Source: Candidatus Agathobaculum pullistercoris (GTDB lineage: Bacteria > Bacillota > Clostridia > Oscillospirales > Butyricicoccaceae). Taken from it: 64,000 nt of DNA. The DNA lies in NCBI GenBank assembly GCA_019114345.1, contig DXFS01000010.1, positions 62,001-126,000 on the forward strand, read 5' to 3'. Both the position numbers and the translations under genes were made by a program. Numbering within the stretch: the first letter of the stretch is position 1; every line of letters begins with the position of its first letter. The notes beneath the pieces are model-generated. The model worked only from the letters and a program-made list of their open reading frames with translations. It was not told where the DNA came from and ran no database searches. This document shows, piece by piece, positions 21,961 to 44,347 of the stretch.

Positions 21961-22905
21961 ATGCCCACCTCCGTACTGCTCCCCGAGGGCGAGCTGCGCG
22001 TTGCGCGCTGTGATACGCTGGACAAGCTGATCGCGGTCGGCGACGGCGACGCGGCGCTGCTCTATCTCTATATCCTGCGCCACGGCGGTACAGCGGACGG
22101 CAAGGCGGCCGCGCGGGCGCTGCACCTGTCCGCGGAGCGGTACGAGCGCGCGGCGTTTACCCTAAACCAGCTCACCGCTCCGGCCGTACCGCAAAAAGAG
22201 GACAAGCCCGATGCGGCCCCGCAGTACACGGCGGACGAGCTGCGCCGCGCCCGGCTGGATGACCAGCGGTTCGCTGCGGTCTGCCAGAGCGCGGAGGGCG
22301 TGCTCGGCCGTACGCTGACCGAGGGCCAGCTGCGCTGCCTGCTGACTGCCTATGACCACCTCGGCCTGTCGGCAGAGGCGATCATTGAGCTGCTGTCCTA
22401 CCTGAAAGGGGAGAAAGGCACGGTTCGGCTGGCGGATATCCGCCGCGAGGCGTACCAGTGGGCGGATATGGGCATTGTGACCGCGCAGGACGCACAGCAG
22501 TACCTGTCCCGCCGGGTAAATGAAAAGCCGCTCAGCGAGGCGGTCTATAAGGCGCTCGGCGCCGACCCGTCCCAGCCCGCGCCCAAGGAGCAGCGCGTGT
22601 GCCGGTTCGCGCTTGCGCACGGCTTCCCGCCCGAGGCGGTCGCGCTGGCCGCCGCGCGCACGGACAAGCACCAGGGGCATAAGAGCCTGGATTACACGCT
22701 CGGCATCCTGCGCCGGTGGGATGAAAGCGGCGTACATACGATCAGCGAGATCACCGCGCTCGAGCCGGAGACCCGGGCGGCGGTCGGCCAGACCGCGGCG
22801 CAGCCGACCGACAGCGCGACCCTCGCCGCGTGGGAGCAAAAGTGGGAAGAAAGCAGGAGAGAGACTCGACGGAAGAGACTGGAGGCGGAAGCCAGTGGCA
22901 TATGA
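21961..22905 (+). CDS. DnaD domain protein
   Basis: Domain order and downstream DnaC-like gene; EGVLGRTLTEGQLRCLLTAYDHLGLSAEAIIELLSYL. Confidence 0.8.
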   Translation: MPTSVLLPEGELRVARCDTLDKLIAVGDGDAALLYLYILRHGGTADGKAAARALHLSAERYERAAFTLNQLTAPAVPQKEDKPDAAPQYTADELRRARLDDQRFAAVCQSAEGVLGRTLTEGQLRCLLTAYDHLGLSAEAIIELLSYLKGEKGTVRLADIRREAYQWADMGIVTAQDAQQYLSRRVNEKPLSEAVYKALGADPSQPAPKEQRVCRFALAHGFPPEAVALAAARTDKHQGHKSLDYTLGILRRWDESGVHTISEITALEPETRAAVGQTAAQPTDSATLAAWEQKWEESRRETRRKRLEAEASGI

Positions 22906-23890
22906 TAGAAAAATCCTTGCCGCCGCGCGCCGCGCGCTCGAGCGCGACCGTGCCGCGCGGGCGGAGGAGATGGAAGCGCGCCGGCGCGACGTTTACGCGC
23001 GCGCGCCGCGCATCCGCGCGATTGACCGCGAGCTGTCCTCGACCGCGGCGGCGGTGCTCAAAGCGGCGCTTGAGTCGGGCGGCGATCCCGAGGCGGCGAT
23101 CACGCAGCTGCGCGACCGCAATCTTTCCCTGCAGGAGGAACGTGCGTCCCTGCTCGGTCAGCTCGGCCTGCCTGCGGATTACCTGGCGGACAAGCCGCTG
23201 TGCCCCAAGTGCGGGGACACCGGCTATCAGGGCAGCGCGACCTGCGACTGCGTCAAGGAGCGCTACACGATGCTGCTAAAGGAACAGCTTTCTACTGTAT
23301 TGCCGATCCAAGATCAAAATTTTGATAAATTCAGGTTGGATTATTATCCCACAAGGGTTGATAGCCGGTTGGGCGACTCACCTCGAGAAATAATGGCTGA
23401 CAATTTATACGAGTGCCGAACATATGCAAAGGAATTTACGCCGCATGCACCTAATCTGCTGTTTTATGGCTCAACAGGTCTGGGGAAAACGTTTTTATCA
23501 ACGTGTATTGCCGAGGAAGTTTCTGCGCGTGGATTTTCGATAGCATATGACACGGCAATTAACATTATTGCGACATATGAGACGATCAAGTTCGGCAACG
23601 GCGACGGGGAAGCCGCTGCAGAGCGCGCCGCACGTTATGAGCGCGCCGACCTGCTCATCATCGACGATATGGGCACCGAGATGGGCACAGCGTTTACCGT
23701 GTCCGCTCTGTACAACCTGATCAACAGCCGTCTGATGGCAAAGCGGCCTATGATCATCAACACCAATCTGTTACCTGAGCAACTTAGTGATAAATACTCG
23801 CCAGCTGTGGCTTCCCGGTTGCGTGGTGAGTTTAAGCCCCTGCATTTTGTAGGCGACGACATCCGGCTGATGAAGAAAAAGCAGAGGTAG
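22895..23890 (+). CDS. DnaC/DnaI-like ATP-binding protein
   Basis: Walker A FYGSTGLGKTFLS, Walker B LLIIDDMGTE; N-terminal zinc-binding CPKCGDTGYQG..CDC; GTG start proposed. Confidence 0.9.
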   Translation: MAYDRKILAAARRALERDRAARAEEMEARRRDVYARAPRIRAIDRELSSTAAAVLKAALESGGDPEAAITQLRDRNLSLQEERASLLGQLGLPADYLADKPLCPKCGDTGYQGSATCDCVKERYTMLLKEQLSTVLPIQDQNFDKFRLDYYPTRVDSRLGDSPREIMADNLYECRTYAKEFTPHAPNLLFYGSTGLGKTFLSTCIAEEVSARGFSIAYDTAINIIATYETIKFGNGDGEAAAERAARYERADLLIIDDMGTEMGTAFTVSALYNLINSRLMAKRPMIINTNLLPEQLSDKYSPAVASRLRGEFKPLHFVGDDIRLMKKKQR

Positions 23891-23919: not shown

Positions 23920-23973
23920 TTCACAGGCCGTTCAAAATCTGTTCATATATCCGGTGGGGAAATGGGGTATACT
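23920..23973 (+). promoter_or_regulatory. sRNA1 promoter: 3 x TTCA at 11-bp phasing + TATACT
   Basis: TTCA at 23920, 23931, 23942; TATACT 23968-23973; 20 bp from TTCATA to -10. Confidence 0.85.
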
Positions 23974-23979
23974 AAACAT

Positions 23980-24115
23980 GTCGATAAGGGAAGCCGCAAT
24001 CCTGAATCGACAGACAGCCTACCGATCTTTTTTATTTCTCTTTTACCCCCCTTTTTATTTTGTGAAATGACAGAAAGCGCCCCGGTTCCGTTTCCCCCAC
24101 GGACCGGGGCGCTTT
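23980..24115 (+). ncRNA. Tandem sRNA unit 1
   Basis: GTCGAT..ATCGAC 5' hairpin, pyrimidine tract with CTTTTACCCCCCTTTTT, terminator AAAGCGCCCCGGT..ACCGGGGCGCTTT. Confidence 0.75.
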
Positions 24116-24154
24116 CCCGTCTGCCGGAAAGAGCGGAGAACTTGTAAAAAACCT

Positions 24155-24208
24155 TTCAAAGACTGTTCAAAAACGGTTCACAAACCAAGGCGTACGGTGC
24201 GTTATACT
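24155..24208 (+). promoter_or_regulatory. sRNA2 promoter: 3 x TTCA at 11-bp phasing + TATACT
   Basis: TTCA at 24155, 24166, 24177; TATACT 24203-24208; 20 bp gap. Confidence 0.85.
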
Positions 24209-24214
24209 AAGGAT

Positions 24215-24352
24215 GTCGATAAGGGAGACCGCAATCCCGAATCGACAGACAGCCAACCGATCTTTTATTTCTCTTTTACCCCCCTTTTTTCTATTTTGTG
24301 AAATGACAGAAAGCGCCCCGGCCCAGTTCCTCCTGTGGATCGGGGCATCTTT
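24215..24352 (+). ncRNA. Tandem sRNA unit 2
   Basis: GTCGAT..ATCGAC hairpin, CTTTTACCCCCCTTTTTT tract, terminator hairpin 24310-24352 with loop TTCCTCC. Confidence 0.75.
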
Positions 24353-24390
24353 CTGCATAGGGCGGCATCAGACGAATTTGTAAAAAACCT

Positions 24391-24444
24391 TTCAAAGTCT
24401 GTTCAAGAATCGTTCACAAATTCGGCCGGCTGCTGGGGTATACT
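24391..24444 (+). promoter_or_regulatory. sRNA3 promoter: 3 x TTCA at 11-bp phasing + TATACT
   Basis: TTCA at 24391, 24402, 24413; TATACT 24439-24444; 20 bp gap. Confidence 0.85.
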
Positions 24445-24448
24445 ATGG

Positions 24449-24591
24449 TTGTCGGAAGGGAAAACACCCTCCCTCCGGCAAACTCCTTTTAACACCTTGT
24501 TTTCTTTCTTTCACCTTTTCTTTTTACCCTCTTTTTCATTTTGCATTGGTATGTACCCTGTTTCCAGCCGGAAGCAGGGTACTTCCCTTTT
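24449..24591 (+). ncRNA. Tandem sRNA unit 3 (most diverged)
   Basis: TTGTCGGA..TCCGGCAA hairpin, long T/C tract, terminator GTACCCTGTTTCC-agcc-GGAAGCAGGGTAC plus TTCCCTTTT. Confidence 0.7.
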
Positions 24592-24623: not shown

Positions 24624-24677
24624 TTCACAGGCTATTCAAAATCTGTTCACACATTCTCCACCGCAGCGCAGTATACT
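24624..24677 (+). promoter_or_regulatory. sRNA4 promoter: 3 x TTCA at 11-bp phasing + TATACT
   Basis: TTCA at 24624, 24635, 24646; TATACT 24672-24677; 20 bp gap. Confidence 0.85.
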
Positions 24678-24683
24678 AAATAC

Positions 24684-24820
24684 GTCAGCAAGGGAAGCCG
24701 CAATCCCCCGCTGACAAGCCAACCGATCTTTTATTTCTCTTTTACCCCCCTTTTTCAAATCTGTGTAGTGAATCGGCAAAGCGCCGCTGTCCCGTTTCCC
24801 CCAACGGGCGGCGGCGCTTT
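24684..24820 (+). ncRNA. Tandem sRNA unit 4
   Basis: GTCAGC..GCTGAC hairpin (compensatory changes vs units 1-2), CTTTTACCCCCCTTTTT tract, terminator AAAGCGCCGC..GCGGCGCTTT. Confidence 0.75.
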
Positions 24821-24874
24821 GTCAATGTTTCGTGTTTCGCCCGGACCATACAGGTTCGGACGAGAGGGATGCAT

Positions 24875-40439: not shown

Positions 40440-40482
40440 TTTACAGTTTGTTAATGCATTTTTCGCAAAACAGCGGTATAAT
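40440..40482 (+). promoter_or_regulatory. TCS promoter with two degenerate 11-bp-phased boxes
   Basis: TTTA 40440, TTAA 40451, 20 bp from TTAATG to TATAAT 40477-40482. Confidence 0.4.
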
Positions 40483-40516: not shown

Positions 40517-41197
40517 ATGCCCAAGAAAATATTGATCGTAGAAGACGAAGCCAACATCCGCGAGCTGCTGCGCCTGTACCTCGAGCGCGAGGGCTACACG
40601 GTGATTGAAGCGGAAAACGGCGTGGAAGGCATCAAGCAGTGGAAAAGCGAAAAGCCGGATATGCTCCTGCTCGACGTGATGATGCCGGTCATGGACGGCT
40701 GGACGGTGTGCAAGGAGATCCGCGCGGAAAGCGACGTGCCGATCATCATGTTGACCGCCAAGGGCGAGACGGCGGACCGCGTTTCCGGCTTGGAGATGGG
40801 AGCGGACGACTACATCGTCAAGCCGCTTGAAATGCCTGAAGTCATTGCACGCGTGCGCGCGGTGTTCCGCCGCATGGCGCCGGACGAAACGCCGGAGAAG
40901 CTGTCTTTCGACAATCTGGTGATCGATAAGCAGGCGTATGACCTGGTCATCAAGGGCAAACGCGTGGATGCGCCGCCTAAGGAGATCGAATTGCTGTATT
41001 ACCTTGCCTCCAGCCCCAACCGCGTATTTACCCGCGCGCAGCTGCTGGATGACGTATGGGGGTTCGATTATTTCGGCGATACCCGTACGGTGGATGTACA
41101 TGTCAAGCGTCTGCGCGAAAAGCTGGAGGGCGTGTCGGATAAATGGGAGCTGAAAACCGTCTGGGGCGTTGGCTATAAATTTGAAACCAAGGAGTAA
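40517..41197 (+). CDS. OmpR/PhoB-family response regulator
   Basis: KKILIVEDEANIRELL, LLLDVMMPVMDGW, C-terminal winged helix TRTVDVHVKRLREKLE. Confidence 0.95.
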   Translation: MPKKILIVEDEANIRELLRLYLEREGYTVIEAENGVEGIKQWKSEKPDMLLLDVMMPVMDGWTVCKEIRAESDVPIIMLTAKGETADRVSGLEMGADDYIVKPLEMPEVIARVRAVFRRMAPDETPEKLSFDNLVIDKQAYDLVIKGKRVDAPPKEIELLYYLASSPNRVFTRAQLLDDVWGFDYFGDTRTVDVHVKRLREKLEGVSDKWELKTVWGVGYKFETKE

Positions 41198-41200
41198 GCC

Positions 41201-42658
41201 ATGGGCAGACGCAGCTTTTTCTTTAAAAATTACGTGACCCATCTGGTGCTGATCGTGTGCGCATTTGCAGTAGCAGGCGGTGTGTTTTACTACCAGATGA
41301 GCAACTATGCACTGTCCTCCAAGCAGGCGGAATTGCGCACGACCGTGCAGAGCCTTGCCGAACAGACCAAGCTGATGCAGGGAACGGATTCGGATATCAT
41401 CCGGCAGATTTATATGCTGTCCATCGGCCGTGTGGCCAAAGAGGATATGATCACGGTCTGCGTGACCGATCAGGACGGGATTATCCAGATGGCGGCCGAC
41501 CCGACCGGCACGGTGGTGGAATACAGCCGTCAATATGTGATGCCGGCGGCCGCGATCGAGCAGGTGCGCAGGACGGGCAGCTATGCTGAGGTAGGCCAGT
41601 TGGGTGTTCTGGGCGACAGCTCAAGCTATACGGTCGGCACAGGCGTGGTGGACGACAGCACGGGGGAGCTTTCCGCAATGGTGTTCGTCAACACGCAGGA
41701 TGCGACCGCAGCCGGTACGGTGCGCCATTCGACACAAACGCTGGTCCTGATCCTGCTGGTGACGCTGGCGGCAGCGCTGATTATCTCGTTCATCCTGTCC
41801 CAGCACATGACGCGGCCGCTCAAAGTGATCGCGGCCGCGGCCAAAGCGTTCGCGGCAGGCAATTTTGAGGTGCGCGTGCCGGAGGATAACCACTGCTATG
41901 AGATAGACGAACTGGCGGTATCCTTTAATAACATGGCGCGCGATCTTGACCAGCTGGAAGAGCTGACGCGCGGGTTTATTTCCAACGTCAGCCATGAATT
42001 CAAGACCCCGATGACAACGATCGGCGGTTTTGTCGACGGCATGATCGACGGCACCATCCCTGCCGACCAGCGGGATAAATACCTGCATATTATTGCCGAG
42101 GAGACGCGCCGCCTGTCGCGTATGGTCAACCGCATGCTGGACGCCGCCAAGATCCAGTCAGGCGAACTGATCCTGAACCCCGCGCCGCTCGATTTTTCCG
42201 AAATGACAACGCAGATCCTGCTGTCCTTTGAGCAGAAGATCGAAAAAAAAGAGCTTGCGGTTGAGTGCGACGTGGGCGAGCGCCTGCTTGTAATGGGCGA
42301 CGTCGATCATTTGTACCGCGCCGTGTATAATCTGGTGGATAATGCGGTTAAATTTATTGAACAGGGCGGCCGCCTGTGCCTGCGGGCGCGCAAGGAAGGG
42401 GACTTCTGCGTGTTCTCGGTCAGCAATACAGGAGCCGGGATTTCAGCGGAGGATTTGCCGCATATCTTTGACCGGTTCTATAAGGCGGACCGCTCGCGTT
42501 CCATGGATAAGACGGGCGCAGGATTGGGACTGTATATTGTCAAAAATATTATCAACCTGCATGGCGGCGAGATATCCGTCCGTTCGGATGGCGGTGAGAC
42601 CGAGTTTGAACTGACGCTGCCGCTGGCTCCCGCGCAGCTGCCGAGCAGCAAGCAGTGA
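41201..42658 (+). CDS. Sensor histidine kinase (extracytoplasmic sensor, HAMP, HisKA, HATPase)
   Basis: FISNVSHEFKTPMTTIGGFVDGMIDG, NLVDNAVKF, DRSRSMDKTGAGLGLYIVKNI. Confidence 0.95.
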   Translation: MGRRSFFFKNYVTHLVLIVCAFAVAGGVFYYQMSNYALSSKQAELRTTVQSLAEQTKLMQGTDSDIIRQIYMLSIGRVAKEDMITVCVTDQDGIIQMAADPTGTVVEYSRQYVMPAAAIEQVRRTGSYAEVGQLGVLGDSSSYTVGTGVVDDSTGELSAMVFVNTQDATAAGTVRHSTQTLVLILLVTLAAALIISFILSQHMTRPLKVIAAAAKAFAAGNFEVRVPEDNHCYEIDELAVSFNNMARDLDQLEELTRGFISNVSHEFKTPMTTIGGFVDGMIDGTIPADQRDKYLHIIAEETRRLSRMVNRMLDAAKIQSGELILNPAPLDFSEMTTQILLSFEQKIEKKELAVECDVGERLLVMGDVDHLYRAVYNLVDNAVKFIEQGGRLCLRARKEGDFCVFSVSNTGAGISAEDLPHIFDRFYKADRSRSMDKTGAGLGLYIVKNIINLHGGEISVRSDGGETEFELTLPLAPAQLPSSKQ

Positions 42659-42681
42659 GCCTTACGGACAGGACAGAATAA

Positions 42682-42709
42682 AGCGCCGCCTGCGGGCGGC
42701 GCTTTAAAC
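42682..42709 (+). terminator. Terminator after the TCS
   Basis: AAAGCGCCGCC-tgc-GGGCGGCGCTTTA. Confidence 0.8.
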
Positions 42710-42729: not shown

Positions 42730-42783
42730 TTCAAAAAATATTCATATTGTTTTCAACAAACCGCCACAATGGCGCACTAAAAT
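42730..42783 (+). promoter_or_regulatory. htrA promoter: 3 x TTCA at 11-bp phasing + TAAAAT, same geometry as the sRNA promoters
   Basis: TTCA at 42730, 42741, 42752; TAAAAT 42778-42783; 20 bp from TTCAAC to -10. Confidence 0.85.
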
Positions 42784-42814: not shown

Positions 42815-44347
42815 ATGGACGAATTCAATAATAACTATACGCCCGCACCGCGCGGCGATGATAATAGTATGGATACGCAGCCGCAGCAGGCGGAGGCGCA
42901 GAACATGCAGCCTGGACAGGATGCACAGACGGCACAGGAGCCGCAGACGCAGTATACGCGGTCGGAACCGACGGAACAGGAGCCGCAGGCCGCGCCGCAA
43001 TACGAAGAGCCGCGTACGCCGTACCAAACACCGGTGCAGCATCCGGATTATCAGCCGCCGCACGCGGATCAGACTTATTACTCCGCGCCGCAGCCGCAGC
43101 AGGATTTCGCCGGCGGACCGCAGCCGCCTAAAAAGAAGGGGCACGGAAAAGCCATCGTTATCGGACTCTGCAGCGTGGCGGCGGCATGCCTGCTGTTTGC
43201 GGGCGGAGCGGTCATTGGGCATGTGGTATCCGGCGGCAACGGCGGATCGGCCGCAGCCAGTGCGGATAGCGGATCCGACAGCCTGCCGACGGTACAGATC
43301 AGCGACACGCCGGAGCTCGATCCGGACAACTACGATGTCGTCAACGGGCTGGCAGGCGAGGAGATTTACAAAAAGGTAAGCCCGGCTGTTGTATCTGTGA
43401 TTGCAACGCTGTCCAATGGCACAGGCAGCGGCTCAGGCGTGATTATGAGCGCGGACGGCTACATTATCACCAATGACCATGTAGTAGCGGATGCGCAGAG
43501 CGTTTCGGTCCAGCTTAGCGACGGCACTCAGATGGACGCGCAGATCATCGGCACGGATGAGCAGACCGATCTGGCGGTCATCAAGGTCGAGCCGGAGAGC
43601 GAGCTTACGCCGGCTGAGTTCGGCAACTCGGATGACCTGCAGCCTGGTGAATATGCATATGCGATCGGCTCGCCCGGCGGCGTGCAGTTCGCAAATACGA
43701 TTACGGGCGGCCGGATTTCCGCCATTAACCGCGACGTAACGATCAACGACCGTGTGATGACCCTGATTCAGACAGACGCGTCCATCAACCCGGGCAACTC
43801 GGGCGGCGCATTGATCAACAAGTACGGCCAGGTGGTCGGTATCACGTCAGCGAAGCTGTCCAGCAGTGCATTTAGTGATACCACGATCGAGGGCATGGGT
43901 TTTGCGATCCCGATCAACACCGCTAAGGATATCGTTGACGAACTGATTGCCAACGGTTATGTGACAGGCCGTCCTTCCATCGGCATTACGGGCCGCAACG
44001 TCGAGTCGGCTGACGGCAGCATTTCGGGCGTACAGGTCTATTCGATTGACTCGCGCGCTTCTGCGGGCAGCGAAGGCCTGCAGGTCGGCGATGTGATCAC
44101 GGCGGTTGACGGAACCCCGACCCCGACGATGGACGAAGTGAACAGCGTCAAGGAAGATAAGCAGGCAGGCGACAAGATTACCCTGACCGTATACCGGATT
44201 TCGACTGGCCAGATGCTTAACATCACCGTCACGTTGATGGATGCGCATGATCTGGAAGGCGATGATCCGGCGGCGGAGAGCAGCCAGAGCACACAGGACA
44301 ACAGCAGCGGCGGCTATCAGGATACCTTCCCGTTCTTTGGCTGGTAA
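42815..44347 (+). CDS. htrA: HtrA/DegP-like S1C serine protease with PDZ domain
   Basis: TNDHVVADAQ, DLAVIKVE, SINPGNSGGALIN, PDZ region; Pro/Gln-rich cytoplasmic N-terminus plus TM. Confidence 0.96.
   Translation: MDEFNNNYTPAPRGDDNSMDTQPQQAEAQNMQPGQDAQTAQEPQTQYTRSEPTEQEPQAAPQYEEPRTPYQTPVQHPDYQPPHADQTYYSAPQPQQDFAGGPQPPKKKGHGKAIVIGLCSVAAACLLFAGGAVIGHVVSGGNGGSAAASADSGSDSLPTVQISDTPELDPDNYDVVNGLAGEEIYKKVSPAVVSVIATLSNGTGSGSGVIMSADGYIITNDHVVADAQSVSVQLSDGTQMDAQIIGTDEQTDLAVIKVEPESELTPAEFGNSDDLQPGEYAYAIGSPGGVQFANTITGGRISAINRDVTINDRVMTLIQTDASINPGNSGGALINKYGQVVGITSAKLSSSAFSDTTIEGMGFAIPINTAKDIVDELIANGYVTGRPSIGITGRNVESADGSISGVQVYSIDSRASAGSEGLQVGDVITAVDGTPTPTMDEVNSVKEDKQAGDKITLTVYRISTGQMLNITVTLMDAHDLEGDDPAAESSQSTQDNSSGGYQDTFPFFGW

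Follow-up and report, generated by a model that had tools for sequence, protein, structure and literature searches.

Phased TTCA boxes shared by htrA and a tandem small RNA array point to a probable common two-component regulon in Agathobaculum

In Agathobaculum, one sensor–regulator pair probably switches on a surface quality-control protease and a set of tandem small RNAs (sRNAs) through the same evenly spaced boxes. The sequence studied is a 64,000-nucleotide stretch of a Candidatus Agathobaculum pullistercoris contig (the window), in which genes for a response regulator, a histidine kinase and the protease HtrA follow one another on the forward strand. The features of this locus are:

40440–40482, + strand: promoter of the regulator operon with TTTACA (40440–40445), TTAATG (40451–40456) and the −10 element TATAAT (40477–40482), a candidate for autoregulation
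40517–41197, + strand: OmpR/PhoB-type response regulator, 226 aa (Pfam Response_reg and Trans_reg_C)
41201–42658, + strand: sensor histidine kinase, 485 aa (domain matches to HAMP, HisKA and HATPase_c)
42680–42705, + strand: G+C-rich inverted repeat AAAGCGCCGCC-TGCG-GGCGGCGCTTT in the gap between the kinase gene and htrA (direct reading)
42730–42757, + strand: htrA operator, three boxes phased by 11 bp, TTCAAA (42730), TTCATA (42741) and TTCAAC (42752) (direct reading; kept in congeners)
42763–42768, + strand: fourth half-site of htrA, GCCACA, in the same 11-bp phase and inside the palindrome GCCACAATGGC
42778–42783, + strand: htrA −10 element TAAAAT, without a sigma-70 −35 hexamer
42815–44347, + strand: htrA, membrane-anchored trypsin-like serine protease with a PDZ domain, 510 aa (Pfam Trypsin_2 and PDZ_2)

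The HtrA protein matched the HtrA/DegP models of NCBIfam, with scores below their cut-offs. The inverted repeat ahead of the operator lacks a long T tail and hence was not listed in the consensus terminator scan; it is a probable terminator isolating htrA on its own promoter.

A preliminary description of the window had placed TTCA at 42730, 42741 and 42752, with TTCAAC followed by 20 bp and TAAAAT at 42778–42783, and direct reading confirmed these coordinates exactly. It had also called the htrA promoter identical in architecture to the four sRNA promoters. That holds for the spacing, which is the same in all five, but not for the box sequences: the hexamers are TTCAAA/TTCATA/TTCAAC at htrA and TTCA[CA]A/TTCAA[AG]/TTCA[CT]A at the sRNAs, and a matrix built from the sRNA promoters gave htrA 19 bits versus 45–49 bits for the four sRNA sites. 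The genome-wide scan that had been suggested was run with the pattern TTCA-N7-TTCA-N7-TTCA-N22-TANNNT, its reversed form serving as the control. The pattern occurred five times in the organism's own genome (2.06 Mb, 77% complete), at the four tandem sRNA promoters and at htrA, with no randomly scattered matches. The reversed pattern had no match in the whole 2.06-Mb genome, and none of 100 dinucleotide shuffles of the window contained the pattern. When two mismatches were allowed in the boxes, a search of eight genomes gave mostly chance hits, the reversed control matching too.

The exact pattern was present in 24 of 24 Agathobaculum congeners, giving 88 matches in 25 genomes and none for the reversed control. 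Sorted by sequence, 21 of the matches precede htrA and the remainder precede sRNAs. Among congeners without an exact match at htrA, G009 and G010 retain boxes 2 and 3 and have an altered box 1, and the htrA boxes of G011 are more diverged. In A. desmolans (L053) and at L055, htrA lies upstream of the regulator genes and is divergent from them, yet the boxes are kept. At the htrA promoters of other Butyricicoccaceae genera, boxes 1 and 2 stand in identical register to the −10 element and box 3 has become GACAAC or similar. The fourth half-site appears as TCACA, GCACA or TCATA in other genera and is absent from the class A sRNA promoters of Agathobaculum. Being paralogues, the four sRNA promoters are not independent, and one could read their boxes as alike through duplication and those of htrA as coincidental, a chance or copy-number artefact. 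However, htrA is an independent match, the shuffled and reversed controls were empty, and the htrA boxes are conserved both in congeners and in other genera; these conservation data already refute the chance or duplication reading, to which we attach virtually no weight.

The four sRNA genes form a tandem array, each copy with its own promoter:

23920–23973, + strand: sRNA 1 promoter, TTCA boxes at 23920, 23931 and 23942, −10 TATACT (23968–23973)
23979–24117, + strand: predicted sRNA 1 (class A), with a 5′ hairpin, a CU-rich single strand with CCCCCC and a strong 3′ hairpin with a C-rich loop (RNA model match and fold; inferred 5′ end)
24155–24208, + strand: sRNA 2 promoter, three TTCA boxes and TATACT
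24214–24354, + strand: predicted sRNA 2 (class A; RNA model match and fold)
24391–24444, + strand: sRNA 3 promoter, three TTCA boxes and TATACT
24450–24587, + strand: predicted sRNA 3 (class B), with another CU-rich stretch, UUUUUACCCUCUUUUU (class B alignment, weak model match of 22.8 bits, fold)
24624–24677, + strand: sRNA 4 promoter, three TTCA boxes and TATACT
24683–24822, + strand: predicted sRNA 4 (class A; RNA model match and fold)

Copies 1, 2 and 4, which make up class A, share the 5′ hairpin loop GCCGCAA and the conserved single strand CCGAUCUUUUAUUUCUCUUUUACCCCCCUUU; their strong 3′ hairpin has the loop UUUCCCCC in most cases. The C-rich core is 89–95% unpaired in the predicted ensemble. 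The arms of the 5′ hairpin vary but stay paired, in 95% of cells versus 83% (maximum 87%) with the arms re-dealt; because the count takes the best-fitting 3′ arm it favours pairing, a bias for which this shuffle control corrects in part. An Rfam search of the window and the array returned nothing at the gathering score, the best weak match among bacterial sRNA families being RsaE with 19.7 bits (cut-off 79). The short transcripts might instead encode small proteins (e.g., MSIREAAIPNRQ...), as in 37 of 76 sRNA copies an ATG close to the inferred 5′ end is followed by a short frame. The ATG is missing in the other 39, however, and where a frame does begin with ATG the space upstream is too small for a Shine–Dalgarno sequence. 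The distance from GCCGCAA to CCGATC, between hairpin and core, ranges from 24 to 31, with indel lengths not divisible by three, and the frame is lost. The hairpin arms co-vary. We rejected the small-protein reading on the lost frame and the missing ATG, and consider it very improbable. Directly upstream of the array lies a DnaC/IstB-like helicase-loader gene (22520–23890 of the window); a gene of this type, recognized by eye, also stands beside an sRNA in another genus (L031). A scan of viral contigs for the sRNA promoter found none.

A covariance model of class A, which starts downstream of the promoter, was run on 87 genomes of the family. It matched in 25 of 25 Agathobaculum genomes and in genomes of five further genera (g5, g9, g10, g12 and g14). 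Among the inspected relatives outside the genus with a recognizable −10 element, the boxes were in register in 36 of 36, with TT[ACT]A at −26 in 35 and at −37 in 33, and box 3 was a nearly invariant TTCACA (26 of the 36). Three further weak model matches lacked boxes and are probably spurious. Genus g10 also has a second sRNA class (10 matches: L225, L229, L236, L244–L247 and L257–L259) in which ACAC is added at −15 and the boxes stand at −37/−26/−15 rather than −48/−37/−26. The proposal of a regulon shared by htrA and the sRNA array thus gains support from the uniqueness of the pattern, the reversed control, its presence in all 24 congeners and the register kept at the sRNA relatives. Possible distant relatives of the sRNAs occur in another Oscillospirales family: at L302 and L303, a triple TTCA with TATAAT precedes a stretch that resembles an RNA and contains a hairpin with the loop GAGCCGCACC, CUACCCUCCUC and a terminator.

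The organism's own genome encodes about 17 OmpR-type regulators. Curated NCBIfam equivalogs (MtrA, PhoB, YycF, CseB, BaeR and CpxR) all scored below cut-off against the response regulator, the best being MtrA (239.7 of 300) and PhoB (239.2 of 296), and the kinase reached no NCBIfam equivalog cut-off. In the matrix scan of the window, the promoter of the regulator operon was the best site after those of the sRNAs and htrA, and its boxes share the register of boxes 2 and 3 there. Among the OmpR-type regulator loci scanned in the same genome, a strict box pair was found only at the regulator 40517–41197. Other genera have a TT[TCA]ACA box at −37 of the regulator promoter and mostly TTAATG, TTCATG or TTCACC at −26, the promoter reading TTCACA..TTCACC in some of them. 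Kinase orthologues with at least ~47% identity occur in g1, g5, g9, g10, g12 and g14, which are the sRNA genera, apart from single genomes without a match; the other genera of the family have kinase relatives of 35–42% only and no convincing sRNA. This co-occurrence tracks the boundaries of genera, and phylogeny is a confounder. In one congener, G024, the kinase search found none.

Proteins of the same family, PhoB and PhoP, bind 11-bp direct repeats head-to-tail near the −35 position. The phosphate regulon resembles the present case in its 11-bp repeats and its protein family, but differs in that Agathobaculum has a dedicated PhoB, encoded as a separate gene beside phoU, and that the pstS promoters of congeners carry TTTACA repeats. 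When the matrix was run over four pst loci of congeners, no comparable box site emerged, and the phosphate-regulon explanation was rejected on the separate PhoB and on pstS having TTTACA repeats rather than these boxes. PhoB may nevertheless cross-talk at the regulator promoter of Agathobaculum, which begins with TTTACA.

Control of htrA and the sRNAs by the adjacent two-component system is thus supported indirectly, by adjacency, the related boxes at its own promoter, the genus-level co-occurrence and the exclusion of PhoB. Proteins of the OmpR/PhoB subfamily commonly recognize 11-bp direct repeats, several of the regulators present could read TTCACA-like repeats, and the adjacent regulator's own promoter departs from TTCA in Agathobaculum (TTTACA/TTAATG), nearer to the PhoB box TTTACA. 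The regulon could accordingly be real but belong to another OmpR/PhoB-type regulator (e.g., WalR-like or PhoB-like), the neighboring system being there for another reason. We regard this as unlikely given the location of PhoB and its pstS boxes, the confinement of the strict in-register pair to the adjacent regulator locus and the occurrence of kinase orthologue and sRNA in the same genera. It is, in our judgment, quite likely that htrA and the four sRNA genes form one regulon of the regulator 40517–41197, phosphorylated by the kinase 41201–42658.

Under this assignment, the phosphorylated regulator would bind head-to-tail on TTCA/TTCACA half-sites spaced at 11 bp, the third of which overlies the −35 region, and would recruit RNA polymerase to promoters that offer a −10 but lack a usable −35. 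Its own operon is probably a target too. A scan for consensus sigma-70 −35/−10 promoters found none at the sRNAs or htrA, and because of this and the place of box 3 over the −35 position, activation is more likely than repression. The position of the boxes alone fits either mode, and phased boxes upstream of the −10 and overlapping the −35 region might block polymerase until stress relieves the block. Such repression appears improbable to us, the missing −35 hexamer giving the sRNA and htrA promoters an activator-dependent look; both CiaR (PMC3091779) and LisR (PMC4132741) act as activators of their sRNA promoters. From gene content alone, we infer envelope stress as the signal. HtrA would handle misfolded surface or secreted proteins, and each sRNA would consist of a 5′ hairpin, a CU-rich single strand of ~60 nt with the C-rich core, and a terminator hairpin, mostly with a C-rich loop. 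The sRNAs would pair with G-rich Shine–Dalgarno regions and block translation of the target mRNAs.

The C-rich sRNA cores are complementary to G-rich ribosome-binding sites. The combination AAAGGGGG-N3-10-ATG is ~3–4 times commoner than its reversed control, an excess that Shine–Dalgarno composition alone could explain. The gene pgsA, identified by eye, carries AAAAGGGGGAAUAAAAAUG or nearly so in four of four species, and at L350–L353 its ribosome-binding site reads AAAAGGGGG(A)AUAAAA(A)AUG, complementary to the sRNA core. We take pgsA as a candidate sRNA target and as a lead only.

Boxes 2 and 3 with a −10 element recur at two further genes. They precede a DUF5711 membrane protein gene in nine genomes (G000:C37:3468–3510, L181, and eight congeners), where the box pair is followed by TACAAT, and the operon seems to continue into a CvpA-like frame, labeled as CvpA by eye. 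They also precede an FHA-FtsW/RodA gene in six genomes (G000:C72:4688–4730, L037, and L182–L186), the box pair there being followed by CTTGACAAGCTGTGCTATAAT. Both genes are likely further members of the regulon, and both promoters fit an envelope regulon.

The preliminary description had drawn an analogy to the CiaRH system of streptococci, where CiaRH activates htrA and several csRNAs through direct repeats with an 11-bp period upstream of the −10 (PMC3091779, PMC8186281). The analogy is fair as to logic: htrA and the sRNAs show one operator architecture, and the repeats share their period and their position upstream of the −10. The operators differ: CiaR recognizes two boxes, NTTAAG-N5-(T/W)TTAAG (TTTAAG-N5-TTTAAG), at a distance of 10 bp to the −10 (PMC3091779), whereas the present ones have TTCA boxes in three copies with 20 bp from the third hexamer to the −10. 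Membership in a CiaRH regulon fails on this operator. In Streptococcus, most csRNA loci are scattered and do not form one array. In Bacillus subtilis, the two-component system CssRS controls htrA under secretion or envelope stress and would be alike in that respect; we know of no sRNA arm of CssRS.

The closest analogue in logic, closer than CiaRH, is the LisRK system of Listeria monocytogenes, which controls htrA and LhrC1–5 (PMC11236296). In LhrC, two loops and one single-stranded stretch bear UCCC motifs (PMC4132741), its C-rich sites pair with Shine–Dalgarno regions (PMC4132741, PMC11236296), and no LisR consensus was available when PMC4132741 was published. The two circuits share a two-component system, htrA, and multicopy short sRNAs with a C-rich single strand and loops, the C-rich motifs being a common property and not evidence of descent. 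They differ in that the sRNAs described here have no Rfam match at curated cut-offs, htrA directly adjoins the regulator genes, and the hosts live as commensals in the gut and belong to the order Oscillospirales.

The layout of the circuit is thus one known from Listeria and Streptococcus, here with unrelated-looking parts and in harmless gut commensals. We tentatively see in it, with rather less than even confidence, a third and independently built circuit of two-component system, htrA and multicopy C-rich sRNAs, present in at least six Butyricicoccaceae genera and perhaps in other Oscillospirales families. The sRNAs would damp genes whose ribosome-binding sites carry AAAGGGGG, for example pgsA, a phospholipid gene, as HtrA and FtsW-type functions rise, a convergent envelope-stress logic outside Bacilli. 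If true, this would suggest that htrA and multicopy C-rich sRNAs have come under a single two-component system on more than one occasion, a concrete case for asking why cells couple envelope quality control to translational damping. In a search of an open-access library, we found no paper on sRNAs of Agathobaculum or on this regulon. The sensor pair, the operator with its exact coordinates, the sRNA family and candidate targets are named here, and A. butyriciproducens is among the culturable species.

Another recurrent and conserved element with an 11-bp repeat was treated as a separate motif. At L145, L147 and L148, and similarly in G008, TTTACA-N5-TTCAAA-N5-TACAAACTTTAGACATA is followed by AGCAAGGGA..CCCCTTTT several hundred nucleotides upstream of a gyrB/parE-like gene, and the element is possibly another RNA or a leader.
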